Assembly (NCBI GenBank): GCA_903928015.1
Contig: CAIYPF010000143.1
Coordinates: 130,980 to 194,979 of the forward strand
Length of the DNA stretch: 64,000 nucleotides
Source: an uncultured Gammaproteobacteria bacterium
GTDB lineage: Bacteria; Pseudomonadota; Gammaproteobacteria; Pseudomonadales; UBA5518
Direction: 5' to 3'
Positions 1 to 27,112 of this stretch are shown here, in pieces. The number at the start of each line of letters is the position of its first letter. The first letter of the stretch is position 1. The notes below the pieces were generated by a model. That model was not told the origin of the DNA, did not search any database, and was given only the letters and a program-made list of their open reading frames with translations. A program made the position numbers and the translations under genes.

Positions 1-847
1 GCCGTGCCTGCGGGGAATGATCCCGGTCGAGGTCAAAGAGATAGAGCGGCTTGCAGGTGGCGCTAGCCTCGGACAGCATCGAGATGCTGTCAAAGGTGGC
101 GATGATCCGATCGGCCATGCCGAGATACGCATAATAGGGATTATCAGGATCGCCAGCGCGCCACTCGTAGAGTTCATGAGGAACGCTGGTCTCGCTCCGG
201 AGCAAGCCGGTCACGCACGCCGGTGTGCGTGAACTGGTGCTTATCATCAGGCTGCCACCCAATTCACGGGCGAGGGCGCTCGCCTGAAGCGCAAGCCTGG
301 AGGCGGCACGAGCCCCGAAGGCGTGCGGCCCGCTCGGGCCACCCACCATCACTGCGATGCGCGGTGAGGGCAATTGCTCGAGGCGCTCCTGGTGTCGCTC
401 GACCGCCTGGGCAAGATGCGCAGGTGTTACCCGGTGCATCGTAAGTGCGTTCTGAAGCACCTGGGGCATGGCAGGCAAGCGGTACTGCGGTGTCGCGACG
501 ACGAGATCGAAAGCGGGCGGATCGGACCACGGCCTGCCCACGTGCACAAGACGCGTACGGCCACCGGATGCCTCCCGTACCCAGCGGCACACCGGCTCGT
601 TTCGCATGCCGGCGCCGATAACCAGATCCGGCCATGGGGGCACCAGGGTTGCAGCACTGTCCCGCGCGAGCCCGAAAAGGCCAGTGCCACGGAATAGCTC
701 GAATGGACGACCAATCGGACGGTAACGGACAGGCTTCAATTCAAAGGGCCAGCCCAGCGCCTCCGCGAGTGCCAGCATCTGACTCTGCTCGCCAGCCCTG
801 TAGGCACCGATCACCCACACGCGGGGTTGGGCGGTTTTCCCGGACAC
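1..847 (-). CDS. ELM1-family putative glycosyltransferase (3' end cut by the window)
   Basis: An open frame reads leftwards from a GTG at 847 off the window edge, giving 282 residues without a stop. The N-terminus reads RVWVIGAYRAGEQSQ followed by LALAEALGWPFE. Later come HVGRPW, DLVVATPQYRLP, RIAVMVGGPSGPH and a serine/threonine stretch leading to FDSISMLSEA. These are the hallmarks of the ELM1 (DUF1022, Mito_fiss_Elm1) family. NCBI-style annotation treats that family as GT-B-like putative glycosyltransferases, but biochemical evidence is thin. The GTG start is preceded by a GGAAAG-type ribosome binding site about six bases upstream, and only a few residues precede the conserved core. The gene is divergent from the ACP and serine palmitoyltransferase genes, so a role in adding a sugar to a sphingolipid is possible but is inference. 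Confidence 0.8.
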   Translation of the reverse strand, partial: MSGKTAQPRVWVIGAYRAGEQSQMLALAEALGWPFELKPVRYRPIGRPFELFRGTGLFGLARDSAATLVPPWPDLVIGAGMRNEPVCRWVREASGGRTRLVHVGRPWSDPPAFDLVVATPQYRLPAMPQVLQNALTMHRVTPAHLAQAVERHQERLEQLPSPRIAVMVGGPSGPHAFGARAASRLALQASALARELGGSLMISTSSRTPACVTGLLRSETSVPHELYEWRAGDPDNPYYAYLGMADRIIATFDSISMLSEASATCKPLYLFDLDRDHSPQAR

Positions 848-911
848 TCGTTGCTTTCCACCAAAAATGCACAAGGGGCACCGACCGGGCGGTCGAGCCG
901 AGATCGTGACA

Positions 912-919
912 AGTATACT
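912..919. promoter_or_regulatory. Candidate divergent -10 element
   Basis: The palindrome AGTATACT lies in the short gap between the ELM1-family gene and the ACP gene. It provides a TATACT hexamer on each strand, placed to give leaders of about 50 bases for both. No convincing -35 hexamer was found for either direction, so this is a weak call. Confidence 0.3.
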
Positions 920-975
920 GAGGACATTCACCGCCGCGGCGAGTTGGCCGCTGGCAAGTGCCGGGAAAACGCACG

Positions 976-1218
976 ATGGCAAGCTACGACACCTGTCTCG
1001 CGCGAGTGCTTGAGTTGCTCGCGCCCCTCGCCAAGGCGGGCGGTCCTGTCTCAGGATCGAGCGACCTGATAGGCGAACTCGGACTCTCCTCGATCGACGT
1101 AATGGAAATGATCGAAGGCATCGAGGACGAGTTCGATATCTCCTTCCCCCTGAACAACCTCTCATCCATCCGCACCGCCGGCGAGCTCGCCGCAGAGATC
1201 GCGAGGCTGTCGCAATGA
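976..1218 (+). CDS. Dedicated acyl carrier protein
   Basis: An 80-residue acyl carrier protein. The attachment motif reads ELGLSSIDVMEMIEGIEDEFD-like, aligning Ser39 with the serine of the canonical DSL that carries 4'-phosphopantetheine. The start at 976 (MASYDT) is preferred over 958, since the upstream residues add nothing conserved. Its stop overlaps the start of the serine palmitoyltransferase gene (ATGA), implying translational coupling. In Caulobacter crescentus a dedicated ACP is encoded beside serine palmitoyltransferase and acts in sphingolipid synthesis. By analogy this one would carry the fatty acid used for the long-chain base or the amide chain. It differs from the AcpP consensus (DSL to SSI) and is not in a fab cluster, so it is unlikely to be the housekeeping ACP. 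Confidence 0.88.
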   Translation: MASYDTCLARVLELLAPLAKAGGPVSGSSDLIGELGLSSIDVMEMIEGIEDEFDISFPLNNLSSIRTAGELAAEIARLSQ

Positions 1219-2402
1219 GCCTGCTCGACAAGTTCGAGGCCATGACCGCAGTACGCGCAGAACTCGCTTCGCGTGGAGTGCGCCCCTTTGGCGCCGTGAA
1301 CGAACAGATTATTTCCCCCACGGAAGGCACCATCGGGGGCAAAAGGGTCATCCTCGCGGGAACCCACAATTATCTGGGCCTCACCTTCGACCCCGACTGC
1401 ATCGCTGCGGCGCAGCGTTGCGTTGCGGAGCAAGGCACAGGCACTTGCGGTTCACGCATGGCGGCGGGCACATACGCGGAACACGACGCGCTGGAACGCG
1501 AACTCGCTGCCTTCTTCGGGCGTCGTCACGGCATCGTTTTTTCCACCGGCTTCAGCGCCACGATGGGCGTACCTGCAACCCTCGCCGGGGCGGGCGACAC
1601 GATTCTCATGGACTCCGACAGCCATGCCAGCATCTACGATGGAGTCCGTCTCAGTGGCGCCGAGGTAGTGCGGTTCAGGCACAACGATGCCGCCAACCTC
1701 GAGAAGCGTCTTGAACGGCTCGGCGAGAAGGCAAAAGACACCTTGGTAGTCGTCGAAGGGATCTACAGCATGCTGGGCGATATGGCGCCCCTTGGCGAGA
1801 TCGCGGAACTCAAGCGCAAGTACGGCTTCTGCCTGCTCGTAGACGAGGCCCATTCCATGGGCGTCCTTGGCGAGCGGGGGCGCGGCCTTGCCGAGGCCGC
1901 AGGAGTAGAGGACGACGTCGACTTCATCGTCGGCACCTTCAGCAAGAGCCTGGGATCCATCGGTGGTTATTGCGTCAGCAATCTCGACCAGACCGATGCC
2001 ATCCGGTTCTCGATACGCTCCTACCTTTTCACGGCCTCCTCGACACCTGCCACGGTAGCCTCCACACGCGCAGCATTGCGGGTGCTGCAGGCGCGACCGG
2101 AACTGCGGGACACGCTGTGGCGAAATTCCAGAATGCTCTACAACGGGCTGCGCGATCTCGGTTTCCGCGTAGGCCCTGAGGCCAGCCCCGTCGTGGCAGC
2201 CATCTTCGAGGATCGGGACACGGCAATCCGCTACTGGCGGGGACTGCTGAACCAAGGTGTGCTGGTCAACCTCGTTGTCCCCCCGGGGTCGCCATCGACC
2301 TACAGCCTGCTGCGCGCGAGCGCCAGTGCGGCGCACACCGAAGAGCAGATCACGCGCATCCTCAAGGCATACGCCAACCTCAAGCTCGAGGAGGCGGCCT
2401 GA
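1215..2402 (+). CDS. spt: Serine palmitoyltransferase
   Basis: A 395-residue fold-type I PLP enzyme of the alpha-oxoamine synthase family, which condenses L-serine with a long-chain acyl thioester to 3-ketosphinganine. Visible signatures are GTHNYLGLTF at about 49-58, the PLP-stacking His137 in DSDSHASIYDG, Asp210 and His213 in VDEAHSMG, the Schiff-base Lys244 in GTFSKSLG, and Arg367 in a VPPGSPSTYSLLRAS block. The DSDSHASIYDG block, the FTAS segment and the PP-x-LLR block match the Sphingomonas and Caulobacter soluble enzymes more closely than the relatives KBL, BioF or HemA, as far as can be judged by eye. It overlaps the ACP gene by four bases and the phosphoesterase gene by one, so the three form one operon. 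This assignment anchors the locus as sphingolipid biosynthesis. Confidence 0.9.
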   Translation: MSLLDKFEAMTAVRAELASRGVRPFGAVNEQIISPTEGTIGGKRVILAGTHNYLGLTFDPDCIAAAQRCVAEQGTGTCGSRMAAGTYAEHDALERELAAFFGRRHGIVFSTGFSATMGVPATLAGAGDTILMDSDSHASIYDGVRLSGAEVVRFRHNDAANLEKRLERLGEKAKDTLVVVEGIYSMLGDMAPLGEIAELKRKYGFCLLVDEAHSMGVLGERGRGLAEAAGVEDDVDFIVGTFSKSLGSIGGYCVSNLDQTDAIRFSIRSYLFTASSTPATVASTRAALRVLQARPELRDTLWRNSRMLYNGLRDLGFRVGPEASPVVAAIFEDRDTAIRYWRGLLNQGVLVNLVVPPGSPSTYSLLRASASAAHTEEQITRILKAYANLKLEEAA

Positions 2403-3331
2403 TGACTGCGCCCGAGGCGGTATTCCGCTTCGCGCATCTGTCAGACCCGCACCTGACCGACCCCTCGGGCGCCCGCTTTCGCGAACTCGCAGGCAAGCGC
2501 GCGCTGGGATACCTCTCCTGGCGGCGCCGTCGCCGCCACGAACATCGACGCGAATTCCTTGACGCCCTCAGCAGCGATCTCCAGAACAGGGCTCCGGACC
2601 ACACCGTTATCACCGGGGACCTTACCCATATATCCCTGCCCCAGGAGTTCCTCGAGGCCCGCGAGTGGCTACGCTCACTGGGAACTGCGGAACGCATCAC
2701 CGTCGTCCCGGGAAATCACGACTGCTATGTACGCATGCCGTGGGACCAGTCGCTCGGCTTGTGGTCCGAGTTCATGCGCGCCGACAGCGCAGAAGCAGGC
2801 ACCGGATCTCTGTTTCCGCTCGTCCGGATACGCGGACCCGTGGCGTTCATAGGCCTCAGCTCAGCAGAGCCCTCTCCTCCCCTTTTTGCGACGGGCAGAC
2901 TGGGTGACGAACAACTGGATCGTCTGGATCAGGCGCTTGCAGCGCTCGAGCACAGCGGGCTTCTTCGTGTCTTGATGCTCCATCACCCACCGGTGCCTGG
3001 CACCGAGAGGTGGCGCAAGCGCCTTGTCGATGCTCCGGAGCTGTGCAGCCTTCTCGAAAAACGACCTGTGGACATGGTGCTGCACGGACACAGGCACCGG
3101 CCGGGTCATACCTTGATCAAGATGACGGGACGCCAGATCCCGGTGTTCGGGATTCCGTCGGCCTCTGCGGCAGGACTGCATTGCAAACACGCATCCGAGT
3201 ACAACGAATACGATGTCGTGAGGACTGAGCGGGGCTGGCGGGTGGATGTCAGGGCTCGCAGCTGGCAGGAAGGCTCGCCAATCTATCGGGAAGAGCAGAT
3301 CGCAAGGCTGGAGATCGGACGATCCCGCTGA
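2402..3331 (+). CDS. Calcineurin-like metallophosphoesterase
   Basis: A 309-residue protein with the full binuclear-metal phosphoesterase set: SDPHL (Asp15, His17), GDLT (72-75), GNHD (104-107), HHPP in the middle, and HGHRH towards the C-terminus. The SDPHL start resembles the Icc/cyclic-nucleotide phosphodiesterase branch rather than UDP-diacylglucosamine hydrolase LpxH. There is an arginine-rich run, RRRRRHEHRR, near residues 41-50. The start overlaps the serine palmitoyltransferase stop by one base (TGATG), so it is co-translated. A phosphatase in such an operon could act on a phosphorylated sphingoid or head-group intermediate. The sequence itself gives no substrate. It converges with the nucleotidyltransferase gene, with a six-base gap. 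Confidence 0.85.
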   Translation: MTAPEAVFRFAHLSDPHLTDPSGARFRELAGKRALGYLSWRRRRRHEHRREFLDALSSDLQNRAPDHTVITGDLTHISLPQEFLEAREWLRSLGTAERITVVPGNHDCYVRMPWDQSLGLWSEFMRADSAEAGTGSLFPLVRIRGPVAFIGLSSAEPSPPLFATGRLGDEQLDRLDQALAALEHSGLLRVLMLHHPPVPGTERWRKRLVDAPELCSLLEKRPVDMVLHGHRHRPGHTLIKMTGRQIPVFGIPSASAAGLHCKHASEYNEYDVVRTERGWRVDVRARSWQEGSPIYREEQIARLEIGRSR

Positions 3332-3337
3332 AGGTCA

Positions 3338-4138
3338 TCAGGGCCGTTGCAACATGACTGCTTCGACCAGAGCATGGTCCTCGATCGAGTCCACATCAAC
3401 ACCCGCCTCGCCGAAAGGCATTCGCACAGCAGCAACGCGAATACCTGTACGGCGCGTGAGAAGCGCCATTGCCTGATCCAGCGTGAGCCAGCCAAGCCGA
3501 TAGCGCAGCACGGCTGTCCACCCCAAGAGTTGAAGGACGCGCCACGGAGTCTTGCGCGCACTCTCGACCTGACGCCACAGCGCCGCAAGTTCCCGGCCGG
3601 CAGTTGTGTTGAAGACGAAAAGATTGCACCCGCAGTAATCGTCATCCCGAAACCGCAGCAGCGTCTTGCGCATCGTGGGGAAGATTTCCCGGACCTTGGA
3701 GTAAGGCGCCAGGCCCACCACCGCGTCTGCTCCTGTCTGATCAGCGTGAGCGCAGAAATACTCGATGTACTCAGGCCGGAGCAGTGGATGATCTGCCGTC
3801 GTCAGGAGCACACGCAGCGCGGGATCGATGTCCCGCAACACGTCCGATGCGCTGGTGCTGGGCGTTGCACCGGAGGCTCTCCACCTGACGGCGCCTGCGT
3901 CTAGCCGCTCCAGCAACTCGGGGTCGGCCCGCGCCGCCTCTATCGGCGGACCGCTCAGGTGAACCGAGGAAATGCAGGCAGCACTCTTCAACGCGTCGAG
4001 CACGTGCAGGATCATGGGCCTGCCGGCAATCGGCAGAAGCGCCTTGCAGCCACGCCCGGAGGCGACTACCAGCGGATCGTCCTGCCGACGATCACCAGCC
4101 AGCACAATCGCCGCGCACCGCCTGGCATCCATTCTCAC
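3338..4138 (-). CDS. MobA-like nucleotidyltransferase
   Basis: A 266-residue protein with an NTP-transferase N-terminus: IVLAGDRR, then a loop ending GRGCKALLPIAGRPM, and later TTADHPLL, which supplies the metal-binding Asp of this fold. It belongs to the NTP_transf_3/MobA-like superfamily, which activates sugars, alcohols or cofactors as nucleotide conjugates. It overlaps the stop of the GNAT-like gene upstream (ATGA), so the pair is one operon; this coupling also supports the 4138 start. Because its partner resembles ceramide synthase, making an activated head group for a sphingolipid is a reasonable inference. A molybdenum-cofactor role is less likely because no moa/mob gene is nearby. Confidence 0.78.
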   Translation of the reverse strand: MRMDARRCAAIVLAGDRRQDDPLVVASGRGCKALLPIAGRPMILHVLDALKSAACISSVHLSGPPIEAARADPELLERLDAGAVRWRASGATPSTSASDVLRDIDPALRVLLTTADHPLLRPEYIEYFCAHADQTGADAVVGLAPYSKVREIFPTMRKTLLRFRDDDYCGCNLFVFNTTAGRELAALWRQVESARKTPWRVLQLLGWTAVLRYRLGWLTLDQAMALLTRRTGIRVAAVRMPFGEAGVDVDSIEDHALVEAVMLQRP

Positions 4139-5277
4139 AGCTCCATCTCGTAAAGCCGGTAGCGCTTGTACAGTTGGCCACCGATCGCCTCGATGATGCT
4201 GCGCATACCCGAGTTGTCCTCCAGTATCCAGGACATCTCGACTTCACGGACGCCACGGGCACACAGGCTCTTGCGGACGGCATCGATCACCAGGAATGCG
4301 AGCCCGGGCCCCAGCCGGGAATGCTGGAAAGACTGGCGCACCCCCATGAGCGGCACTCTGGCGCTTCGGGGGTGTCTGACCTTGAGTCCCCAGAGCAGCT
4401 TCAGCCAGCCGAGAGGAAGCAATCTGCCACCGAAACCACGGATGAGTTCGTTGATGTTGGGCATTGCCACGATGAAAGCGGCAGGCTCACCGTCGACCTC
4501 GGCGATCTGGACGTAATCGGTCGGCGACAACAAGGTGACCATTTTGCCGACATCCGCAAACTCTTCCTCGGTGAACGGCACGAAACCGTAATTGCGCGAC
4601 CACGCGTCGTTGAAGATATCGCGGATCAGCGCGAGTTCACGCTCACGATTTCGGGTATCGAGGGGTCTCACCCGGACGCTGGCTCCTCCAGCCTCTGCGA
4701 GACGCTTCATCACTCGGGGAGCCTGGAAATCAGGAGCGACGCGGTAGGCCAGCAAATCCTTAGCTGGCAGCAGACCGACAGACTGAAGGGCTGCGTCATA
4801 ACGCGGCAGTCCATGCCCCATCATCACGCAAGGCGGCGAATCGAAACCCTCGACCAGCAGGCCGCACTCCTCGTTCACAGACAAATTCAGCGGCCCCCGC
4901 AACCTGCGAGCCCCCTGCGAGCGCAGCCACGCCGCGGCGACGTCCATCAAGGCGCTGGTGACGGCGGGGTCATCCGCTGCTTCGAACAGACCGAAAGCTC
5001 CACGCTGATCCCCGTGCATGTCTTGATGCAACTGGTCCCACTGTGCGGTGATTCTGCCAACGGGCCTGTCTGATGCGTCGTAGGCAACCCACGCCTGGAC
5101 TGACGCGTGCAAGAGATAAGGATTGCTGCCCCAGACCCTTTCACGGAGTTCGAACTCGAGCGGCGCTATCCAATGCGGGTCGCCTGCGTAAAGCTGCGAA
5201 GGCAGACGGAGAAAGTCGTTACGGCGGGATCGGGAATCGACGGGGAGCACCCTGATCGCATTGTCGGAGCGTTTCAA
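4135..5277 (-). CDS. GNAT-fold protein, candidate bacterial ceramide synthase
   Basis: About 380 residues from a TTG at 5277 preceded by GGAG. The frame stays open to 5400, but those upstream residues look non-coding and lie beyond a TATACT -10-like hexamer at 5319-5324. Conserved-looking segments are FLRLPSQLYAGDPHWIAPL, a GRITAQWD block, RLRGPLNLSVNEECGLLVEG followed by FDSPPCVMMGHG, and KDLLAYRV. The C-terminal acyl-transfer-like half ends in GQLYKRYRLYEMEL. This architecture fits the N-acyltransferase-like family that contains the Caulobacter ceramide synthase bCerS, which acylates the sphingoid base. The family call rests on motif recollection, and other members have no known function. 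Its position within the serine palmitoyltransferase locus strengthens the inference. Confidence 0.72.
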   Translation of the reverse strand: MKRSDNAIRVLPVDSRSRRNDFLRLPSQLYAGDPHWIAPLEFELRERVWGSNPYLLHASVQAWVAYDASDRPVGRITAQWDQLHQDMHGDQRGAFGLFEAADDPAVTSALMDVAAAWLRSQGARRLRGPLNLSVNEECGLLVEGFDSPPCVMMGHGLPRYDAALQSVGLLPAKDLLAYRVAPDFQAPRVMKRLAEAGGASVRVRPLDTRNRERELALIRDIFNDAWSRNYGFVPFTEEEFADVGKMVTLLSPTDYVQIAEVDGEPAAFIVAMPNINELIRGFGGRLLPLGWLKLLWGLKVRHPRSARVPLMGVRQSFQHSRLGPGLAFLVIDAVRKSLCARGVREVEMSWILEDNSGMRSIIEAIGGQLYKRYRLYEMEL

Positions 5278-5602
5278 TGGATGGTTTCTCCGAACCGTGC
5301 CACAGGAGCAGTGCGGCGAGTATACAAGCCGGTTTGAAGACAGCGCCACATGACAACGCCTTCGCGAGCACACTGAAAAAACTCTTTTCAAATCCGGCAA
5401 TTAGCTGAGCAAAAAACGATGTGCCTGCGGCCTTTTCGGGCCAAATAGTACCAATCGACCAAGGTTGATTTGGGGCGAGTACGAACGAAAAATAGGTCCG
5501 ACAAGTACGACAGCGCTCAAAGACTGTCGTGGGCCAAGAAGCAGCGGCGCAGGCCTTCAAGGGGAAGGCAAGTGGGTAGGCGCCAGCGAGCTCGACCACG
5601 AC
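5278..5602. other. Divergent intergenic region between the acyltransferase-like and acyl-AMP ligase genes
   Basis: About 325 bases of visibly lower GC than the flanks, with no supported gene. For the minus-strand gene, TATACT (the complement of 5319-5324) is a plausible -10. For the plus-strand gene, TTGATT at 5465-5470 followed 17 bases later by AAAAAT is a weak promoter candidate. No long inverted repeat resembling an operator was found. Confidence 0.5.
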
Positions 5603-7405
5603 ATGGGCATACAACAAGGGAAACACACGGTTTTGCGCACCGAATCGACACCCACACGACACGATCTTCCGTTTCGCCCCGCGGATTTTCGTACTCTCAC
5701 CGAAGCTCTGGATTACGCCGCACGCGGCGAAACCGGCGCGAACTTCTATACGGGTCGCGGAGACTTCTACGCGTCTCTGCCCTTCTCCGAATTGAGACAG
5801 CAGTCCATTTGCCTTGCACGCAAGCTGCTTGGCCTCGGGCTCCAGAAGGGTGACAGGGTTGCGATGGTCGCCGAGACCCACCCTGATTTTCTGCGGGTAT
5901 TTTTCGGGTGTCAGTACGCAGGCCTGATCCCTGTGGCCCTTCCCGCCACCATCAACCTTGGTGGCCACCAAAGTTTCGTAGCGCAGTTGCGCGGTCTTAT
6001 CGAAAACAGCGGCTCGTCCATCGCCATCGCCTCTGAGGGCTTCCTTCCCTTCGTGCTCGAAGCGGTTGAGGACCTGCCCCTGCTGATGGTCGGAGAGCCC
6101 GCCGAATTCGATCAGTTGCCCGAGAACGGTGCTGAATTGCCCGTGATCGAGCCGGGGGATGTCTCATACCTCCAGTACACCTCTGGCAGCACCCGATTCC
6201 CGCGCGGAGTGATCATCGAACACCGTTCGGTGATGAGCAATCTGAACGGAATCATCATTGATGGCGTGAAAATCAAGGAAGGCGACCGCTGCTTCTCGTG
6301 GCTGCCGTTCTATCACGACATGGGGCTGGTCGGTTTGGTGCTGGTTCCCGTTGCAGCGCAGATGTCCGTCGATTACATGGACACTCGGGATTTCGCCATG
6401 CGCCCCAGGCAATGGCTGAGCCTGATGTCCCAGACCAAGGCCACCATATCGTTCAGCCCTTCATTCGGTTACGAGCTGTGCGCCAGGCGCCTGCGTGACG
6501 GTGAGGCCGGGCGCTATGACCTCAGCAACTGGCGCGTCGCGGGCATCGGGGCCGAGATGATCCGCTGGGAGACGCTTGAGCGGTTTGCAGCAGTCCTTGC
6601 CCCCGCAAACTTCGACCCCAGGGCATTTCTTGCCTGCTACGGCATGGCAGAGTGCTCGCTGGCAGTCAGCTTTTCTCCGCTGTTCGGTGGATTCCGGACC
6701 GACCTCGTGGATCTCGATCACCTTACCGACCACGGACGTGCAGTGCCCGTCAGTGAGGGCGCTACCGGGCGGGCCAGAGCCTTCGTCGATTGCGGCAAAC
6801 CGCTCCCCGAGTACGAGATGGAAATCCGTGACGAGCACGGTGCCATCCTGCAGGACAGGACAACAGGCACGATCTTCGTCCGCGGCGCGAGCGTGATGTC
6901 CGGGTACTTCAATGCCCCTGCAGAGACCGCGGCCGCACTCAGCCCGGACGGCTGGCTGAACACGGGCGACATCGGCTATATGGTCGACGGAAGTCTGGTG
7001 ATCACCGGTCGGCAGAAAGACCTGATCATCATCAACGGTCGCAACATCTGGCCCCAGGACCTCGAGTATCTGGCGGAGCATCAACCCGAGGCTCGTGTCG
7101 GTGACGCGCTGGCCTTCTCGGTGCCGGGACCCGAATCCAGAGAGATATGCGTACTCGTGGTGCAGTGCCGGGAAACCAATCTGCAGCGTCGATCGGCGCT
7201 CATTGATCGCCTTACCCGACTGGTGCGCCTCGAGATGGGCATCGATTCCTACATCGAGCTTGTACCGCCGCACACCTTGCCTCGAACCTCCTCGGGAAAG
7301 CTCTCCCGATCCAAAGCACGTCAGACATTCATCCAGACCCACGACCTGTCAGAGGTTGCCGCAACTGCGGAAGGCGCACCGCTGCGCCAGCAAGTTTCGG
7401 CCTGA
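5603..7405 (+). CDS. Fatty acyl-AMP ligase / acyl-ACP synthetase
   Basis: A 600-residue ANL-superfamily adenylating enzyme. The P-loop motif YTSGSTRFPRG is at about 192-202 and is followed by the SWLPFYHDMGL block typical of fatty acyl-AMP ligases. Further on are ACYGMAE, the NTGDIGY motif with its ribose-binding Asp, GRQKDLIIINGRN, and a C-terminal LPRTSSGKLSRSK carrying the catalytic lysine. The HDMGL and INGRNIWPQDLE segments resemble FAAL-type enzymes, which load acyl chains onto carrier proteins rather than CoA. With a dedicated ACP in the same locus, the likely job is to activate a fatty acid for sphingolipid synthesis, as the acyl-ACP synthetase of the Caulobacter ceramide cluster does. 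The start is uncertain: 5603 is the first ATG adjoining conserved sequence and has a weak ribosome binding site. Confidence 0.85.
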   Translation: MGIQQGKHTVLRTESTPTRHDLPFRPADFRTLTEALDYAARGETGANFYTGRGDFYASLPFSELRQQSICLARKLLGLGLQKGDRVAMVAETHPDFLRVFFGCQYAGLIPVALPATINLGGHQSFVAQLRGLIENSGSSIAIASEGFLPFVLEAVEDLPLLMVGEPAEFDQLPENGAELPVIEPGDVSYLQYTSGSTRFPRGVIIEHRSVMSNLNGIIIDGVKIKEGDRCFSWLPFYHDMGLVGLVLVPVAAQMSVDYMDTRDFAMRPRQWLSLMSQTKATISFSPSFGYELCARRLRDGEAGRYDLSNWRVAGIGAEMIRWETLERFAAVLAPANFDPRAFLACYGMAECSLAVSFSPLFGGFRTDLVDLDHLTDHGRAVPVSEGATGRARAFVDCGKPLPEYEMEIRDEHGAILQDRTTGTIFVRGASVMSGYFNAPAETAAALSPDGWLNTGDIGYMVDGSLVITGRQKDLIIINGRNIWPQDLEYLAEHQPEARVGDALAFSVPGPESREICVLVVQCRETNLQRRSALIDRLTRLVRLEMGIDSYIELVPPHTLPRTSSGKLSRSKARQTFIQTHDLSEVAATAEGAPLRQQVSA

Positions 7406-7423
7406 GGCCAAGGCGAATCCCAG

Positions 7424-8341
7424 GTGCTCGTTGCACTCACGGGCGCGACAGGGTTCATTGGCGAGCGCCTGGCGAAAAGGCTTGTTGCAGAAGGCCACAC
7501 GGTACGGGCTCTCACCCGCCGGAACTCCATGTCACTTCCCCCGGGGATCGAACCCGTCCGCGGAGATCTCTCGGACAACGAATCCCTTGGCCGGCTGGTT
7601 GAGGGTTGTGATGCCCTGATGCATCTCGCAGGGGCAGTGCGTGGCAGCACTGCCTCAGACTTCAATTTCCCCAACGTGGACGGCACTGCGCGGCTGATAG
7701 CGCAATGCAGTGCACGCGCGCCACGGCTTCCCGTGCTTTTCTTCTCTTCGCTGGCCGCCCGCGAACCGCAGTTGTCTCATTACGCGGCAAGCAAACGCCG
7801 GGCGGAGGATCTGTTCCCGGGTTACGACGGCCCATGGCTGGTGCTGCGCCCTCCGGCGGTCTATGGCCCCGGCGACAAGGAGATGCTGCCAGTCTTCCGG
7901 TTCATGGCGCGCACAGGCTTCGCACCCTGCGCAGGCAGGCGCAGCGACAGACTCTCACTGGTGTTTGTGGATGACCTCGTGGATGCGTCCGTTGCCTGGT
8001 TGCCACGCCGCGAACGCATCCGCGCCGTGTGCTCGCTGCATGACGGCCACACCGGTGGCTACGACTGGCCCGACCTTGCGGAGGCTGCAGCGGCCGTATG
8101 CGGGCGGCGCGTGCGTGTCTGGGAGCTACCAACGCACGTGCTTGATATTGCCGCGCGCGCAAATCGCTCGATCTGCAGACTGACCGGGCGCCAACCCATG
8201 CTGTCACCGGAGAAACTCCGCGAGCTGAGGCATCCCGACTGGGTGTGCGATAACGACGACATCACCTCGCTTGTGGATTGGGCGCCTGCCACATCGCTTG
8301 AAGATGGTCTGGCGGCGACTCCCGGCTGGGCGCGCAACTGA
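7424..8341 (+). CDS. NAD-dependent epimerase/reductase, candidate ceramide reductase (CerR-like)
   Basis: A 305-residue extended short-chain dehydrogenase. The Rossmann glycine motif GATGFIG is at residues 7-13. The catalytic set is Ser108/109, Tyr120 and Lys124 (HYAASK), and LRPPAVYGPGD follows. It starts with GTG 18 bases after the acyl-AMP ligase stop, so the two are one transcript. In Caulobacter an NAD-epimerase-like protein, CerR, reduces the 3-keto group of the ceramide. Here the family, order and neighbours match that scheme. The fold is shared with nucleotide-sugar epimerases and 3-beta-hydroxysteroid dehydrogenases, so sequence alone does not fix the substrate. Confidence 0.8.
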   Translation: MLVALTGATGFIGERLAKRLVAEGHTVRALTRRNSMSLPPGIEPVRGDLSDNESLGRLVEGCDALMHLAGAVRGSTASDFNFPNVDGTARLIAQCSARAPRLPVLFFSSLAAREPQLSHYAASKRRAEDLFPGYDGPWLVLRPPAVYGPGDKEMLPVFRFMARTGFAPCAGRRSDRLSLVFVDDLVDASVAWLPRRERIRAVCSLHDGHTGGYDWPDLAEAAAAVCGRRVRVWELPTHVLDIAARANRSICRLTGRQPMLSPEKLRELRHPDWVCDNDDITSLVDWAPATSLEDGLAATPGWARN

Positions 8342-8417
8342 GGGCCGAGGCGCGCATTCGTCTGGACGAGCCGCAAGCCCTGTCGCTAAGCTCGCGCACG
8401 TTTCAACTCTTCCACGG

Positions 8418-9662
8418 ATGTATCCCATGGGTGGCTGCCCTCTCGCAAATCTGATCGACCCGGACACCTACGCGGAAGGCATGCCCTACGACGAACTCCG
8501 TCGATATCGGGAGCAGGGCCCGGTGGTCCGTCATGAAGACCCTCTTACGGGCGTTCCTTACTGGGCGATCGTAGGGCAGCAGGAACTCGACTACGTATCC
8601 AAACACCCCGAGCTTTTCTCCTCGGCTGAGCGCTCGCCTTTCCCGGCCGAGTATCCCCAGGACCAGGTTGAGGGCATACATCGCAAGACGATCATCGGCA
8701 TGGATCCACCACTGCACCAGAAGGTGAGGAGGATCATGCGCGGTGCCTTCACGCCGGCCGCCGTGGACGCTCACGAGGCCTCGTTCCGGCTGCACGCCAA
8801 GCGGATTGTCGACGCGGTGCTTTCACGCGGTGACTGCGAGTTCGTCGAAGAGGTGGCAGCAGAACTGCCGCTCCTGGCGATCCTCGAGCTGCTTGGCGTG
8901 GATCCCGCCGACCGCAAGGATTTCTTCAACTGGACCAACACGATGATCTTCGCCGACGACCCCGATATGGCGGTCTCGGAACTGGACGGACAGATCGCTG
9001 CTGCCAATGTGATCGGCTACGCGATGCGCCTTGCCGAGGAGCACCGGCAATCGCCGCAGAAGAACGTGCTCGGAGCGCTGCTGGACGGACTGATCGACGG
9101 GAAACCCCTCAGCACCGAGGAATTCGGCTGGATGTTCGTCCTGACGCTGGTAGGCGGCAACGAGAGCACCCGCACGGTCATCGCCCATGGCATGCGCCTG
9201 CTTATGGAGAACCCGGACCAGCTGCAGTTCCTCGTCGAGAACCCTGAGCGCATCGGCGCGGCCACAGAGGAAATGCTGCGCTACAACACGGCCTTCATCG
9301 CGATGCGTCGAACAGCAATGCAGGACGTGGAATTGGCGGGACAGCACATCCGCAAGGGTGACAAGGTCCTGCTGCACTACCATGCGATCAATCATGACGA
9401 GCGCGTTTTCGGCGAGGACGCGATGCGCTTCGACGTCCGCCGGGCCGAGCGCATGCCCGATCTCTACAACCAGTTGCGTTCTTTCGGGATCGGGCAACAC
9501 TTCTGCATCGGCTCGCACCTGGCAAGGCTGGAGCTTCGGGTCATGTTCGAAGAGATCATCCCGCGCTTGCGGAACCCGCGAATGCTCGCGCCACCGCGCT
9601 TCGTGCGCTCCTTCTTCGTCAACGGCATGAAGGAGATGCGGATAGCGTTCGATGCCGCTTGA
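8418..9662 (+). CDS. Cytochrome P450
   Basis: A 414-residue soluble bacterial P450. The I-helix reads LTLVGGNESTRT, supplying the oxygen-activating region with Thr after Ser. The K-helix ExxR is in EEMLRYN. The heme-binding loop is FGIGQHFCIG, with the thiolate ligand at about Cys363. The upstream open frame extends to 8271, but conserved sequence begins at MYPMGGCPL, so 8418 is chosen; ATG 8427 is also possible. It lies 76 bases after the CerR-like gene on the same strand and may be part of that operon. The substrate is unknown: hydroxylation of a sphingoid or fatty chain is conceivable from context, but the sequence resembles many P450s acting on lipids, terpenes or steroids. Confidence 0.92.
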   Translation: MYPMGGCPLANLIDPDTYAEGMPYDELRRYREQGPVVRHEDPLTGVPYWAIVGQQELDYVSKHPELFSSAERSPFPAEYPQDQVEGIHRKTIIGMDPPLHQKVRRIMRGAFTPAAVDAHEASFRLHAKRIVDAVLSRGDCEFVEEVAAELPLLAILELLGVDPADRKDFFNWTNTMIFADDPDMAVSELDGQIAAANVIGYAMRLAEEHRQSPQKNVLGALLDGLIDGKPLSTEEFGWMFVLTLVGGNESTRTVIAHGMRLLMENPDQLQFLVENPERIGAATEEMLRYNTAFIAMRRTAMQDVELAGQHIRKGDKVLLHYHAINHDERVFGEDAMRFDVRRAERMPDLYNQLRSFGIGQHFCIGSHLARLELRVMFEEIIPRLRNPRMLAPPRFVRSFFVNGMKEMRIAFDAA

Positions 9663-18573: not shown

Positions 18574-18683
18574 CGGCCCCGGTCAGCCACACCCCGGCAC
18601 ATGCATCAGCAACTACCGTTGCTCCCTTCCGGGCCTGGCGGGGTTCGCTACCTAGCGTTGCGAGGGGACCGACCGGGACCACC
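18574..18683 (-). ncRNA. ffs: 4.5S signal recognition particle RNA
   Basis: Read on the minus strand, the region contains CAGGCCCGGAAGGGAGCA, matching the conserved SRP RNA core (GGTCAGGTCCGGAAGGAAGCAGC in E. coli). It is flanked by complementary ends, GGTCCCGGTCGG at the 5' side and CTGACCGGGGCC at the 3' side. Its length of about 110 nt fits the small bacterial form. It binds Ffh to target membrane proteins. Its position just upstream of dnaX is typical. The exact ends are estimated from the terminal helix. Confidence 0.93.
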
Positions 18684-21865: not shown

Positions 21866-24800
21866 TCAGCCATAGGAGAGCACGACGTTGTCGGCACCAA
21901 AACGCTCGCGCAGACGGCCGAGGGCCTCATCGGTGGGAGGTACGCGCCATTGCTCGCCAAGCGTGATGTCGGCCTGGGCCCCGCTTCCCGTGTAGACCAC
22001 GCGCACGGGACAGCCCCCGCGCGTGCGCCAGCCCGACATCAGGCTGCCGAACTGACTGGCGAAATCCGGGCTGAAGTGCGCCTCTCCAAGGCGCAGCACC
22101 AGTTCCCGCGCAAAGCGTCTGCGCGCCTCGGCGATGGTATAGGCCTCCTGTGCTCGCATGCGCAGACCACCGCCCGAAAACTCATCGACGCTCACCGTGC
22201 CTTCCACGACCAGAAAGCTGTCGGGAACGACGAATTCCCTGCAACTGCGATAGGTGTCGGCGAACAAGGAGACCTCGATGCGCGCCGTGCGGTCGTCCAG
22301 TTGCACGAAGGCAATGTCTTCACCCTTCTTGCTCTTCATGGTGCGAAGGCCCACGACCAGGCCAACGACACGCTGCGGCTCGTCCGAGGGGCGTAGACCC
22401 GCGATCCGGGTTCGGGTGAAGCGGGCAACCTCCGCGGCGTAGTCGTCGATGGGATGACCCGTCACGTAGAGACCGAGCGTGTCGCGCTCGCCACGCAGCC
22501 GCTCCTTGACGCTCCATGCGGGCGCGAAAGCATACGCAAGATAGGGATCCGTCCCATCATCGGCGCCCGACGCGCTGCCCACCGCGTCGCCAAAAAGATC
22601 CACTAGCCCGACATTGTGGTTGCGGGCTTGCTGCTCGGCCGCTTTCAGTGCCTCGGGCATCGCGGCCATGAGGACCTGCCGGGGCGCACCGAGCCCGTCC
22701 ATGGCGCCAGAGCGGATAAGCGCCTCCAATGCACGCTTGTTGACGCGCTTGGGGTCCGTGCGGCGGCAGAAATCGAAAAGATCACGGAAAGGGCCGTCTT
22801 TGGCGCGCGCCTCGGCAAGGCTCTCCACCGGTCCCTCGCCGATACCCTTGATCGCGCCGAGTCCGTAGACGATCTCGCCGGTGCCGTTCACCGTGAAACG
22901 GAACTCGCTGGCGTTCACATCGGGAAGCACAAGCGGCAAGCGCATGTGGCGGCATTCCTCGACCAGGACCACCACCTTGTCGGTGTTGTGCATTTCGGAG
23001 GAAAGCACCGCGGCCATGAACTCCGCCGGATAGCACATCTTCAGCCATGCAGTCTGGTAAGACACCAGCGCATAGGCCGCGGAGTGGGATTTGTTGAAGC
23101 CGTAGCCCGCGAACTTCTCCATGAGGTCGAAGATCGAGCCGGCAAGATCAGACTCGATGGAGTTGTCGCGCGCCCCTGTGAGGAAGATCTCGCGCTGCTT
23201 GGCCATCTCCTCGGGTTTTTTCTTGCCCATCGCGCGGCGAAGGAGATCGGCGCCACCCAGCGTGTAGAGCGCCAGGACCTGCGCGATCTGCATTACCTGT
23301 TCCTGGTAGAGGATCACGCCATAGGTGTTGTCGAGAATGGGCTCGAGCAGCGGATGCGGATAGCGCACGACAGCACGGCCATGCTTGCGATCGATGAAGT
23401 CATCGACCATGCCGGACTGCAGTGGCCCGGGGCGGAACAGCGCCACCAATGCGACGATGTCCTCGAAACAACTCGGCTGCAGCCGCTTGATCAGCTCCTT
23501 CATGCCTCGCGATTCGAGCTGGAACACCGCAGTGGTCTCGCCCCGGCAGAGCATGCCGAAGGTCGCTCCGTCATCCAGCGGGATCGCATTGATGTCGATG
23601 GCAGGCTCTGCCCGGCGGGCCCGGGACGCGTTGATGATGTCCAGCGCCCAATCGATGATCGTCAGCGTGCGCAGTCCGAGGAAGTCGAACTTCACCAGAC
23701 CTACGGACTCGACGTCGTCCTTGTCGTAGTGCGTGACCGGGCCACCACCGGTGTCGTCGGCATAGAGCGGGGAGAAGTCCGTAAGCGTGGTAGGGGCGAT
23801 GACCACGCCACCGGCGTGCTTGCCCGCGTTCCTCGCGAGGCCCTCGAGCTTGAAGGCCATTTCCATGATCTCGGCCACGTCCTCGTTCTGCGCGACGAAA
23901 TCGCGCAGGGGCTCCTCCTGTGCCATCGCCTTCTCGAGGGTCATGCCCACCTCGAAAGGGATCATCTTGGAGAGCTTGTCGGCGAGGCCGTAGGGTTTGC
24001 CTTGCACACGGGCCACGTCGCGGACCACGGCCTTTGCCGCCATGGTCCCGAAGGTGATGATCTGCGAGACCGCGTCCCTGCCGTAGGTTTCCGCCACGTA
24101 GGAGATGACACGGTCGCGTCCTTCCATGCAGAAGTCGACGTCGAAGTCCGGCAGTGAAACCCGCTCGGGATTGAGGAACCGCTCGAACAACAGGTTGTAT
24201 GCAAGGGGGTCGAGGTCGGTGATGCCGAGCGCATAGGCCACCAGCGAACCTGCGCCTGATCCGCGCCCCGGCCCCACCGGAACGCCGTTGTTCTTGGCCC
24301 AACTGATGAAGTCCATGACGATCAGGAAGTAACCCGCAAAGCCCATCGAGTTGATCGTTTTCAACTCGAATGCGAGACGCTCCTGGTAGGTCGCCACATC
24401 GGCTGCCGGCTTCGCCATCGATGCAAGCCTGAGGCCGAGCCCCTCGGCTGACTGGCGCTCCAGGTAGCGCTCGGGCGTGTCGCCTTCAGGCACCGGGTAA
24501 TCGGGAAGGTGGTACTTGCCGAGTTCGATTGCGAGCGTGCATCGACGGGCTATCTCGACTGTGTTCTCGAGCGCCTCGGGCAGGTCGGCGAACAGCGCCT
24601 GCATTTCTTCCACAGGGCGCAGGTACTGGTACTGGCTGTAATTGCGGGGACGGCGTGGATCCGCCAGTGCCCTGCCCTCCTGTATGCACACCCTGGCCTC
24701 GTGGGCCTCGTAGTCGTCGCGAGCCAGGAAGCGAACATCGTTGGTAGCCACCACAGGGCAAGCGAGTCGCGCCGCAAGATCGACAGCCAGGTGAAGATAA

Positions 24801-25327
24801 TCCTCTTCCTGAGGGCGACCGGTGCGACAGAGTTCGAGGTAGAAGGCATCCGGAAAAAGCCGCATCCACTCCGCAAGGGAGTCGGCTGCCTGAGCGCTCT
24901 TGCCCGACAGCAGTTGCTGGCCTATCGCGCCCTCTCGTCCGCCCGAGAGCGCGAGCAGGCCATCCGTATTCCCCTGCAACCAGGCGCGACGCAGGACGGG
25001 CTTGCCCAACTGCTGCCCCTCCAGCCACGCCCTCGAAAGCAACGCCATGAGGTTGCGGTAACCCCGGTGGGAGCTGACAAGCAAGGTGAGCGGATGCACT
25101 GCTCCCGCATCGTCCACGAGCACATCGCTGCCAGCGATCGGCTTAACGCCGGCGGCAGAGGCTTCCTTGTAGAACTTGATGAGACCGAAGAGATTCGAGA
25201 AGTCCGTAAGCGCGACGGCGGGCATGCCGAGTTCCGCACAGCGCTCCACGAGTTCCTCGATACGCACCAGTCCATCGACCAGGGAGTACTCGGAGTGCAG
25301 GCGGAGGTGGACGAAGGGGACACTCAT
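21866..25327 (-). CDS. dnaE: DNA polymerase III subunit alpha
   Basis: 1153 residues, the usual DnaE length. The N-terminal PHP domain starts FVHLRLHSEYSLVDG. The polymerase palm has GPGRGSGAGSLVAY and the catalytic PDFDVDFCMEGRD. The finger region has FNKSHSAAYALVSYQTAWLK. The C-terminal part includes an OB-fold (VVGLVVGLRTMKSKKGEDIAFVQLDD). It is the replicative polymerase. Start 25327 matches the family; the open frame to 25627 would run into rnhB and is rejected. Confidence 0.97.
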   Translation of the reverse strand: MSVPFVHLRLHSEYSLVDGLVRIEELVERCAELGMPAVALTDFSNLFGLIKFYKEASAAGVKPIAGSDVLVDDAGAVHPLTLLVSSHRGYRNLMALLSRAWLEGQQLGKPVLRRAWLQGNTDGLLALSGGREGAIGQQLLSGKSAQAADSLAEWMRLFPDAFYLELCRTGRPQEEDYLHLAVDLAARLACPVVATNDVRFLARDDYEAHEARVCIQEGRALADPRRPRNYSQYQYLRPVEEMQALFADLPEALENTVEIARRCTLAIELGKYHLPDYPVPEGDTPERYLERQSAEGLGLRLASMAKPAADVATYQERLAFELKTINSMGFAGYFLIVMDFISWAKNNGVPVGPGRGSGAGSLVAYALGITDLDPLAYNLLFERFLNPERVSLPDFDVDFCMEGRDRVISYVAETYGRDAVSQIITFGTMAAKAVVRDVARVQGKPYGLADKLSKMIPFEVGMTLEKAMAQEEPLRDFVAQNEDVAEIMEMAFKLEGLARNAGKHAGGVVIAPTTLTDFSPLYADDTGGGPVTHYDKDDVESVGLVKFDFLGLRTLTIIDWALDIINASRARRAEPAIDINAIPLDDGATFGMLCRGETTAVFQLESRGMKELIKRLQPSCFEDIVALVALFRPGPLQSGMVDDFIDRKHGRAVVRYPHPLLEPILDNTYGVILYQEQVMQIAQVLALYTLGGADLLRRAMGKKKPEEMAKQREIFLTGARDNSIESDLAGSIFDLMEKFAGYGFNKSHSAAYALVSYQTAWLKMCYPAEFMAAVLSSEMHNTDKVVVLVEECRHMRLPLVLPDVNASEFRFTVNGTGEIVYGLGAIKGIGEGPVESLAEARAKDGPFRDLFDFCRRTDPKRVNKRALEALIRSGAMDGLGAPRQVLMAAMPEALKAAEQQARNHNVGLVDLFGDAVGSASGADDGTDPYLAYAFAPAWSVKERLRGERDTLGLYVTGHPIDDYAAEVARFTRTRIAGLRPSDEPQRVVGLVVGLRTMKSKKGEDIAFVQLDDRTARIEVSLFADTYRSCREFVVPDSFLVVEGTVSVDEFSGGGLRMRAQEAYTIAEARRRFARELVLRLGEAHFSPDFASQFGSLMSGWRTRGGCPVRVVYTGSGAQADITLGEQWRVPPTDEALGRLRERFGADNVVLSYG

Positions 25328-25343: not shown

Positions 25344-25991
25344 CTATTGCGCCCATTGTGCAGCGGCCATACGGACCGGCGCAAAAGAGTAACGATGGAC
25401 CGGACAGGGACCGAGCCTGGCCAACGCGTCCAGATGATCCGGCGTGGGATAACCCTTGTGCACGGAGAAGCCGTATCCGGGGTATTGCAGATCAAGATCC
25501 AGCAGATCGGCATCACGGCTGACCTTCGCCAGGATCGAGGCCGCGCTGATCGCGGGCACTTTTGCATCGCCGCCCACGACAGCTGCCGAAGCATGGCTCC
25601 ACTTAGGGCAGCGATTGCCATCCACAAGAACGAAATCGGGGTGGACTACGAGACCCTCTACCGCTCTGCGCATCGCCAGAAGGCTTGCCTGGAGAATATT
25701 CAGCTCGTCGATCTCGCCCGGACTGGCCCGGCCAACCGACCAGGCCAAGGCTTGCTCGCGAATGATGATGGAGAGCTTTTCCCGCTTGGCGGCAGACAGT
25801 TTCTTGGAGTCATCGAGCCCGGGGATGCTCACTGCGGCCGGGAGGATCACGGCCGCGGCAACCACGTCGCCCGCCAAGGGTCCCCGGCCTGCCTCGTCGA
25901 CGCCGGCGACATTCCGGAAAGGGAGGACGCGTTCGCGCCAGTCAGTCGCTTCCAGTGCAGACGTGCGCTTGCTGCGGGGAGAAGATGACAT
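25344..25991 (-). CDS. rnhB: Ribonuclease HII
   Basis: 215 residues with [16 protein letters not shown] (catalytic Asp32 and Glu33), DDSKKLS, VLVDGN and [17 protein letters not shown]. It removes ribonucleotides and RNA primers from DNA. It starts only 15 bases after fabZ and ends 16 bases before dnaE. In most Gram-negative relatives lpxA and lpxB separate fabZ from rnhB; here nothing does. Confidence 0.95.
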
Positions 25992-26006
25992 CCCGCGCGA
26001 GCAGGA

Positions 26007-26447
26007 TCAGCGCTTGCGATCCGCGCAGAGGATCGTGGCCGAGCAGGCGAGCTCGCCATCTACCGATGCGCGGCAATCGAATTTCCAGATCCCGCGCTTC
26101 TCGGCCAGGATCGCTGCCTCGAGCTGAAGGCGATCGCCAGGGACTACGGGCCGCTTGAAGCGCAGATCGTCTGCGCCCACAAAAAGGTAGATCGAACCGT
26201 CAGCGGGCTTCTTGCCCATCGTCTTGAATCCAAGGATCCCGGCGGCCTGCGCCATTGCCTCGACGATAAGCACACCCGGCATGATCGGTTTGTCGGGGAA
26301 ATGTCCATCGAAGAAGGGCTCGTTCACCGTCACGTTCTTGAACGCCACGATGGCCTTGCCGGGTTCCAGAGAAACCACTCGGTCGACCAAAAGGAAGGGA
26401 TAACGGTGAGGCAGGTGCTCCCGGATATCGTTGACGTCCATGAGCAT
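26007..26447 (-). CDS. fabZ: 3-hydroxyacyl-[acyl-carrier-protein] dehydratase
   Basis: 146 residues with the hot-dog active site: His49 in [14 protein letters not shown] and Glu63 in VEAMAQAAG, plus [13 protein letters not shown] near the start. It dehydrates 3-hydroxyacyl-ACPs in type II fatty acid synthesis. The MLMDVNDI start follows an AGGTAA site. Its usual neighbours lpxD (upstream) and lpxA-lpxB (downstream) are missing, although fabZ itself is intact. This fits loss of lipid A genes while fatty acid synthesis is kept. Confidence 0.96.
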
Positions 26448-26506
26448 CGTTGCGTTACCTCGGCAGGCGCGGGCGCGTGATCGTGGAAAAACGCGAAGTG
26501 AGGCCT

Positions 26507-26540
26507 GAAAACACCCTCGCCCGCATCAGGCGAGCGAGGG
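26507..26540 (-). terminator. Terminator-like hairpin between skp and fabZ
   Basis: On the minus strand CCCTCGC (complement of 26534-26540) pairs with GCGAGGG (complement of 26514-26520) across a 13-base loop. An alternative register pairs CTCGCC with GGCGAG. A short TGTTTT run follows. It could terminate or attenuate transcription leaving skp. It occupies the spot where lpxD is found in relatives. Confidence 0.5.
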
Positions 26541-26555
26541 GCAACACCCCGACTG

Positions 26556-27074
26556 TCAGGGCTTGGTCTGGTTGAGTTTGTCCGTGACCTTGGCGGTCAG
26601 GCTATAGCTGGCTTCGGAAAACAGCGCCGCCTGTGAGTTCAGGAGAAGGCCGACCCCTTCGGCCTTGACCAGATCGCCAACCACCGTATTGGCGCGTGGC
26701 ATCATCTCGCGCATCACGCGGCCAGCGACTTCACGCTCGGACTGCTGGAGCTTCTTCACCACGAACTCGAGATCCGTGCGCAGATCGTTCAGCTTCTTGG
26801 CTTTCTCAGCCTGCTGCTCGGCGCTCATGACTTCCCGGTTCTTGTTGAACTCCTCGGCAAGCTGGTCGTACTGCTTCTTGATGCCTTCGGCTTCTTTCTT
26901 GTTCCGCGTGTAGTCGGGGGTCTGACGCAGCGCGTTGAACTGGGTCTTGGCCTCCTCGGTGTTGAAGACGGCCTCCTCGAGGTTGAGCACGGCTACCCGG
27001 CCCTGCGCCAGGACGGCGCCAGAAAACAGCGACAGCGCACAGGCAAAGATCGTAGCGAAACCGATCCGATTCAC
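26556..27074 (-). CDS. skp: Periplasmic chaperone Skp/OmpH
   Basis: About 172 residues from a GTG at 27074 with GGAG upstream. This gives a clean signal peptide (MNRIGFATIFACALSLFSGAVLA, cleavage near AQG). The frame also opens with an ATG at 27113 overlapping the bamA stop, which would add 13 residues ahead of the signal peptide and is less likely. The mature part begins RVAVLNLEEAV and continues as a long charged coiled coil (KKEAEGIKKQYDQLAEEF), as in Skp, which holds unfolded outer-membrane proteins in the periplasm. It directly follows bamA, as expected. Confidence 0.9.
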   Translation of the reverse strand: MNRIGFATIFACALSLFSGAVLAQGRVAVLNLEEAVFNTEEAKTQFNALRQTPDYTRNKKEAEGIKKQYDQLAEEFNKNREVMSAEQQAEKAKKLNDLRTDLEFVVKKLQQSEREVAGRVMREMMPRANTVVGDLVKAEGVGLLLNSQAALFSEASYSLTAKVTDKLNQTKP

Positions 27075-27112
27075 GTGGATACTCCAGATTGAGGTGGTCA
27101 GGAAGTTGGACA

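Follow-up and report, generated by a model that had tools for sequence, protein, structure and literature searches.

A Caulobacter-type sphingolipid locus in a gammaproteobacterium that has lost its lipid A genes

Ceramide genes of the Caulobacter type in a gammaproteobacterium raise the question of what part the resulting sphingolipid plays in the cell envelope. We address this question for a stretch of 64,000 nucleotides, here called the window (assembly GCA_903928015.1, contig CAIYPF010000143.1, positions 130,980 to 194,979), from an uncultured member of the Pseudomonadales (GTDB lineage UBA5518). The sphingolipid locus and the window lie on one 202-kb contig of this source genome (G000). 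The lipid A pathway genes lpxA, lpxB, lpxC, lpxD, lpxH, lpxK and waaA have been lost, lptD is retained, and in our view lipopolysaccharide (LPS) has probably given way, in this lineage's outer membrane, to the predicted product of the locus, an anionic and probably glycosylated sphingolipid. The evidence is one of gene content, which documents the loss of lipid A genes and from which we infer replacement by the sphingolipid.

Positions 1-9662 of the window hold acpR, spt, aasR (a fatty acyl-AMP ligase, FAAL), cerR and a gene for a ceramide-synthase-like GNAT protein, which together constitute the Caulobacter-type ceramide set (Table 1). The original prediction, made from the sequence alone, had proposed that a serine palmitoyltransferase (SPT) with its acyl carrier protein, an acyl-AMP ligase, a CerR-like reductase and such a GNAT protein occur together here, and all were recovered at or near the predicted positions; family models, SPT relatives, tree and comparison with Caulobacter agree in identifying a Caulobacter-type core set in a gammaproteobacterium. 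By family model, relatives and tree, the gene at 1215-2402 is a serine palmitoyltransferase. Its product scores 590.2 bits against NF047599, the rhodobacterial-type SPT model (curated cut-off 500), and falls below the respective cut-offs of the KBL, BioF and ALAS models. Its best solved relatives are all SPTs (414 bits for 2x8u versus 224 bits for the KBL structure 1fc4), and a tree of 89 rows places it inside the SPT clade (SH-aLRT 99), outside of which fall two other alpha-oxoamine-synthase-like proteins of the same genome (L003 and L004). Identification as KBL, BioF or ALAS is ruled out by the family-model scores and the tree, and the grouping with KBL or BioF that had been named as a counter-check was not seen. 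The GNAT-like CerS protein matches no Pfam or NCBIfam model, and its real start probably lies downstream of the listed TTG. Since the same gene order recurs in three other lake metagenome-assembled genomes (MAGs) of the genus (the nearest being 70-98% identical) and, without the cytochrome P450, in "Candidatus Litorirhabdus singularis", the gene set cannot be put down to chance.

Two side observations concern the SPT tree. In some Caulobacter genomes there are two SPT genes, which fall into separate branches (L043/L086, L046/L091 and L047/L066). SPTs of Nitrospirota and Desulfobacterota MAGs (L035-L038), 58-61% identical to that of the source genome, are placed among those of gammaproteobacteria, a hint of horizontal transfer.

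Is the sphingolipid an addition to LPS, or does it stand in its place? The comparison, in which most genomes are MAGs, covered six genomes of the genus (G000, G008, G052, G114, G141 and G146) and 146 of the order, 7 of them SPT-positive and 139 SPT-negative. Homology searches of the source genome found none of LpxA, LpxB, LpxC, LpxD, LpxH, LpxK and WaaA. Within the order, LpxC is absent from five of the 146 genomes, namely four of this genus (G000, G008, G114 and G141) and G022; LpxB is absent from five of the six genus members, G052 alone having it. A chimeric query composed of E. coli LpxA, LpxD, LpxH, LpxK, WaaA, KdsA, KdsB, FtsZ and FabZ recovered FtsZ, FabZ, KdsA and KdsB from each of the six genus members, but LpxA, LpxD, LpxH, LpxK and WaaA from G052 only. 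Because G052 yielded every gene sought, the search can be taken to work; among the controls outside the genus, G041 and G001 contain all the genes of the query and G134 all except LpxH. All six genomes of the genus retain LptD. With G022 counted as a gap, LPS-less genomes make up 4 of the 7 SPT-positive and 0 of the 139 SPT-negative genomes of the order (Fisher p 1.9e-6), a test without independence insofar as all four come from one genus, and separate LPS-less lineages are the better argument.

The sites of loss remain legible. In the window, rseP, bamA, skp, fabZ, rnhB and dnaE follow one another without lpxD, lpxA or lpxB, whereas G052 has the order bamA, skp, lpxD, fabZ, lpxA, lpxB, rnhB, dnaE, with its spt 25 kb away on that contig. 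Queries from G052 found no remnant of lpxA, lpxB or lpxD at the window site, nor did E. coli queries match LpxA or LpxB there. At a second site, lpxC is missing from between ftsZ and an M23-type gene followed by secA; at a third, between exbD and kdsB, msbA and lpxK are missing, with the genes on either side overlapping by 4 bases in the source genome. Each of the three sites is cut cleanly in G000, G008 and G146 (the LpxC status of the last being judged solely at the ftsZ site) and is intact in G052; G114 and G141 likewise show cuts at the skp and ftsZ sites. Since the sphingolipid locus and the scar in the window share one 202-kb contig, mis-binning cannot explain their association. As a separate observation, a DUF1348 gene (L116 4663-5220) separates ftsZ from the M23-type gene in the source genome, in the expected place of lpxC, and was not called there in G008.

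These sites bear directly on the proposal that this is an ordinary Caulobacter-type phosphosphingolipid locus whose product simply supplements the membrane, and that only MAG incompleteness accounts for the missing lipid A genes. Most members are indeed MAGs, and LpxC alone is missing through an assembly gap in G022, where true loss was rejected, and probably in G179, an SPT-positive genome considered below; both keep other lpx genes. For this genus the gap explanation was rejected: seven genes at several sites are jointly missing in the source genome and its relatives, one of which is ~100% complete in 50 contigs, and at three sites the neighbours on both sides are directly joined, which strongly disfavours incompleteness. 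The LPS-less Ca. Litorirhabdus singularis IMCC14734, moreover, is a cultured isolate with a genome in 17 contigs (PMC10100682). We regard incompleteness as a very improbable explanation.

How often did the loss occur? In a tree built from up to ten concatenated proteins, G146 and G052 are sisters (98/99) and the other four genus members form a clade. Because G052 keeps its lpx genes at their native sites and its sister G146 does not, at least two losses took place within the genus, unless the genes were regained in place. Among the 41 SPT-positive genomes behind named loci, ten are without LpxC: three of this genus, Ca. Litorirhabdus, Methylohalobius, three Nitrosomonadaceae, the Sphingomonadales genome G186, and G179. 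Ca. Litorirhabdus, Methylohalobius sp. SKW56, the Nitrosomonadaceae MAGs (two of which, at 2.0 and 1.3 Mb, are small and weigh less) and G186 are also without LpxA, LpxD, LpxH, LpxK and WaaA; G179 keeps LpxH, LpxK and WaaA, and its lack of LpxC is probably an assembly gap. All three excision sites are cut in Ca. Litorirhabdus, and no lpx genes were present at the sites examined in Methylohalobius and Nitrosomonas OFTM37.

What the locus might build is indicated by its upstream half, which, like the loss of the lipid A pathway, lay beyond the original prediction. The locus does not start at base 1 but extends for ~11 kb upstream on the same contig. Toward the window it encodes, in order, a DAGK-domain kinase, a Tam41-like protein, an ELM1-like protein, a methyltransferase, a sulfotransferase, a protein without Pfam match, a second ELM1-like protein, LptF, LptG and an MsbA-like ABC exporter (with identities of 27% to the MsbA of E. 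coli and 26% to G052's native MsbA) that ends ~210 bases ahead of the window's first base. The kinase and the Tam41-like protein are adjacent homologs of CpgB and CpgC, as in Caulobacter. A second contig carries another locus that resembles a lipid-export system (G000:C116, L126 3714-9911), with homologs of CpgD, LptA-like, LptF, LptG, CpgA and a flippase: its CDP-alcohol phosphatidyltransferase is 42-44% identical to the protein at the Caulobacter CpgA position, its nucleotidyltransferase 50% to that at the CpgD position, and its polysaccharide-type flippase 31% to that at the CC_1166 position, the CC numbers of homologs being assigned from gene order and PMC11324152. All eleven CPG2 biosynthesis genes thus have homologs in the source genome, split over two contigs.

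In addition to the core set, the original prediction had taken the phosphoesterase, nucleotidyltransferase, ELM1-like and P450 genes as signs of an undescribed head group or chain modification. For the first two this does not hold, because they match CC_1158 and CC_1153 and so belong to the described phosphosphingolipid pathway; according to PMC11324152, genes of the CpgB, CpgC, CC_1158 and CC_1153 types are required for, or contribute to, ceramide phosphoglycerate lipids in Caulobacter. The ELM1-like genes, on the other hand, together with the GT8-like gene and the sulfotransferase gene, suggest additional decoration of the sphingolipid. For the P450 the picture is mixed: it occupies the same place in the sister lake MAGs (L027-L029), where it is 90-93% identical and among the more conserved genes, but neither G052 nor Ca. 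Litorirhabdus (L034) showed it next to the locus.

The protein without Pfam match (L009 12718-13719) is 49-97% identical among nine relatives, two of which weakly match Glyco_transf_8. Its predicted model is of moderate confidence (pLDDT 65.7, pTM 0.71) and finds its best fold matches in GT8-type glycosyltransferases (LgtC with Z 14.3 over 210 residues, glycogenin and GlyE); we take it to be a predicted GT8-like glycosyltransferase. The ELM1-like family model, of good quality (pLDDT 83.4), matches GT-B enzymes and UDP-GlcNAc 2-epimerases, with no transferase of 3-deoxy-D-manno-oct-2-ulosonic acid (Kdo) among the fold matches listed, and a search of PDB sequences with the ELM1 profile returned nothing. 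The models thus support a GT-B fold only for these proteins, with Kdo transfer as a candidate function.

GT8-like, ELM1-like and sulfotransferase genes are frequent in polysaccharide loci. Given this, LptF, LptG, the ABC exporter and the glycosyltransferases could instead serve a capsule or O-antigen-like polymer, the ceramide genes alone being for sphingolipid. The gene order around spt, however, is kept in Ca. Litorirhabdus, G146 and the lake MAGs, and LptF/LptG lie within 4 kb of spt even in the LPS-positive G052, which makes a separate polymer system quite unlikely.

For the replacement of LPS by a sphingolipid, homology and gene order, from which we infer enzyme activities, lipid structure and transport route alike, suggest the following course. 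AasR would load a fatty acid onto AcpR, and Spt would condense the AcpR-bound acyl chain with serine; acylation by CerS and reduction by CerR would yield dihydroceramide, which CpgB would phosphorylate and to which CpgC, with CpgD and CpgA from the second locus, would add phosphoglycerate-type groups. The ELM1-like (GT-B) and GT8-like glycosyltransferases, the sulfotransferase and the methyltransferase may decorate this lipid. The MsbA-like exporter would flip it, LptF/LptG would extract it, and delivery would follow the retained LptD route. Lipid A genes disappeared on at least two occasions within the genus, as well as in Litorirhabdus, Methylohalobius and Nitrosomonadaceae.

Several observations weigh against this interpretation. 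SPT-positive relatives that keep LPS exist (G052, G041, G134, Salinisphaera and bin114), so sphingolipid genes are compatible with LPS loss without forcing it. The decoration genes also differ among LPS-less lineages. A second chimeric query found CpgA-CpgD but no ELM1-like, GT8-like or sulfotransferase genes in the three Nitrosomonadaceae (CpgC being partial in one) and the Sphingomonadales genome, the reverse combination, lacking CpgA/CpgD, in Ca. Litorirhabdus and Methylohalobius, and both sets in G000, G008 and G114 and also in the LPS-keeping G041; with this query CpgA and CpgD were not found in Ca. Litorirhabdus or G052, and CpgB was also not found in Methylohalobius. No single head-group module therefore explains all the losses. 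Finally, the source genome has two LptF/LptG pairs, at the locus and on C116, both far from those of E. coli, and the locus pair has no match to Caulobacter LptF2/G2 by tblastn at 1e-4. The canonical LptF/LptG pair of this genome may be gone or diverged.

A further alternative is that LPS was lost and the outer leaflet is covered otherwise, by phospholipid and surface proteins or by capsule, the sphingolipid being a minor or inner-membrane lipid. The LPS-positive carriers of sphingolipid genes are in keeping with it, as are KpsC/KpsS-like capsule genes in the genus, strong in G000, G008, G114 and G052 and lesser in G141 and G146. Against it stand the confinement of the loss to SPT-positive genomes in the order sample, the retention of LptD and LptF/LptG without LPS, the exporter genes inside the sphingolipid locus, and a capsule match that is weak in Litorirhabdus and nil in Methylohalobius. 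We judge such a cover unlikely.

The Kdo synthesis genes KdsA and KdsB are kept without WaaA. That this retention requires Kdo on the sphingolipid was considered and dropped: KpsC/KpsS-like genes offer a simpler Kdo sink in the genus, though none matched in Methylohalobius. In the source genome these capsule Kdo transferase genes lie at G000:C81 1175-4304. Kdo on the sphingolipid is accordingly a minority hypothesis. In Acinetobacter baumannii the third Kdo of lipooligosaccharide depends on an ELM1-like protein, 2903, a proposed glycosyltransferase (PMC10936431); this protein acts on a lipid A-linked core, whereas the source genome has KdsA/KdsB without WaaA or lipid A synthesis. A bolder version of LPS replacement, which we put forward tentatively and as rather unlikely, is that several gammaproteobacterial lineages independently built a ceramide-phosphate substitute for LPS, bearing sugars and possibly Kdo added by ELM1-like enzymes. 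The MsbA-like exporter would flip this lipid, LptF/LptG and LptD would place it in the outer leaflet, and Kdo synthesis would survive without WaaA for that use.

How does this system compare with known ones? The Caulobacter crescentus ceramide/CPG2 cluster CC_1152-CC_1168, as described in PMC11324152, PMC12275187 and PMC10331486, shares aasR, cerR, acpR, spt, cerS, cpgB, cpgC, CC_1153 and CC_1158 with the locus, homologs of cpgA, cpgD and CC_1166 with C116, and LptF/LptG-type permeases. It differs in that the set is split over two loci in the source genome, which additionally has three ELM1-like genes, GT8-like, sulfotransferase, methyltransferase and MsbA-like exporter genes and the P450, and in that Caulobacter has LpxC. 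In Caulobacter, sphingolipids help the cell to tolerate the loss of lipid A (Zik et al. 2022, according to the summary in PMC10964400). Sphingomonas-type bacteria have an LPS-free outer membrane with glycosphingolipids (Kawahara 1991, as cited in PMC10964400); like the source genome, they combine sphingolipid genes with a lack of lipid A genes, and the Sphingomonadales genome G186 is without the same genes. The present case differs in being gammaproteobacterial, with KdsA/KdsB kept, a congener that keeps its lipid A genes, and visible scars.

The original prediction went too far in calling such loci poorly described in Gammaproteobacteria: PMC9386255 and PMC11324152 describe ceramide genes in beta- and gammaproteobacteria, including Azotobacter vinelandii and Pseudomonas luteola. 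For the phosphosphingolipid clusters of these two species, comparable by description as gammaproteobacterial ceramide/CPG2 systems, PMC11324152 suggests horizontal transfer; lipid A loss does not come up in the section consulted. Nitrosomonas europaea, which was reported in 2010 to have only LpxK of the Lpx enzymes (PMC3087551), parallels the three SPT-positive MAGs as a case of lipid A gene loss in Nitrosomonadaceae; that survey nowhere mentions sphingolipids. Gammaproteobacterial ceramide/CPG2 clusters and LPS-free sphingomonads are thus already known, and in the open-licence literature we found no report that connects sphingolipid loci with the loss of lipid A in Gammaproteobacteria, or that documents this within a single genus. 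The Caulobacter laboratory experiment, in which growth without lipid A needs sphingolipid, has seemingly been run several times by nature in Gammaproteobacteria, and one genus contains LPS-positive and LPS-negative species with the deletions still readable. With the LPS-less Ca. Litorirhabdus singularis in culture, the idea is directly testable. As of 2024, no transporter had been identified for sphingolipids to the outer membrane (PMC11087976); if the interpretation is true, the locus provides candidate genes for this transport.

Table 1. Features of the sphingolipid locus and of the excision site. Positions are those of the window unless marked L009, the contig stretch that includes the upstream part (window position = L009 position minus 18980).
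Feature	Position	Strand	Evidence and remarks
CpgB, DAGK-domain kinase with GGDG	L009 7852-8877		PF00781; 29% to Caulobacter CpgB position
CpgC, Tam41-like protein	L009 8880-9806		34% to Caulobacter CpgC position
ELM1-like protein, third of three in locus	1..820 (gene cut by left window edge, start approximate)	-	orthologs in L027-L029 and L034; two complete upstream copies match PF06258; GT-B fold predicted for family
AcpR, dedicated acyl carrier protein	958..1218	+	PF00550, E 1e-9; GLSSIDVM phosphopantetheine site; 37% to Caulobacter AcpR position; overlaps spt
Spt, serine palmitoyltransferase	1215..2402	+	PF00155, 2.7e-53; NF047599, 590 bits; HASIYD, DEAHSMG and TFSKSLG motifs
Calcineurin-like phosphoesterase, homolog of Caulobacter CC_1158	2402..3331	+	PF00149, 3e-15; 44% to L058 14832-15692
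MobA-like nucleotidyltransferase, homolog of CC_1153 (next to cerS)	3338..4138	-	PF12804, 5e-17; 38% to L058 20311-21039 and L046 19584-20312
CerS, GNAT-like bacterial ceramide synthase	4135..5400	-	45% over 384 aa to Caulobacter CC_1154 (cerS) position
AasR, fatty acyl-AMP ligase / acyl-AcpR synthetase	~5525..7405	+	NF006624, 810 bits (cut-off 600); 47% to Caulobacter AasR
CerR, SDR-type reductase	7424..8341	+	PF01370, 1e-21; GATGFIG and YAASK; 37% to Caulobacter CerR position
Cytochrome P450, role uncertain	~8379..9662	+	PF00067, 1e-20; FGIGQHFCIG haem site
dnaE, scar flank	21866..25327 (start approximate)	-	
rnhB, scar flank	25365..25934	-	60% to E. coli RnhB
Scar, lpxA-lpxB gone between fabZ and rnhB	25935..26012	-	intact in G052 (L119)
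fabZ, kept within scar	26013..26450	-	55% to E. coli FabZ
Scar, lpxD gone between skp and fabZ	26451..26555	-	no LpxD match
skp, scar flank	26556..27113	-	65% to G052 Skp
bamA, scar flank	27113..29734	-	38% to E. coli BamA, 74% to G052 BamA

The window also carries, on its minus strand, a bacterial small SRP RNA (18578-18674) and a t44 RNA (37058-37166).

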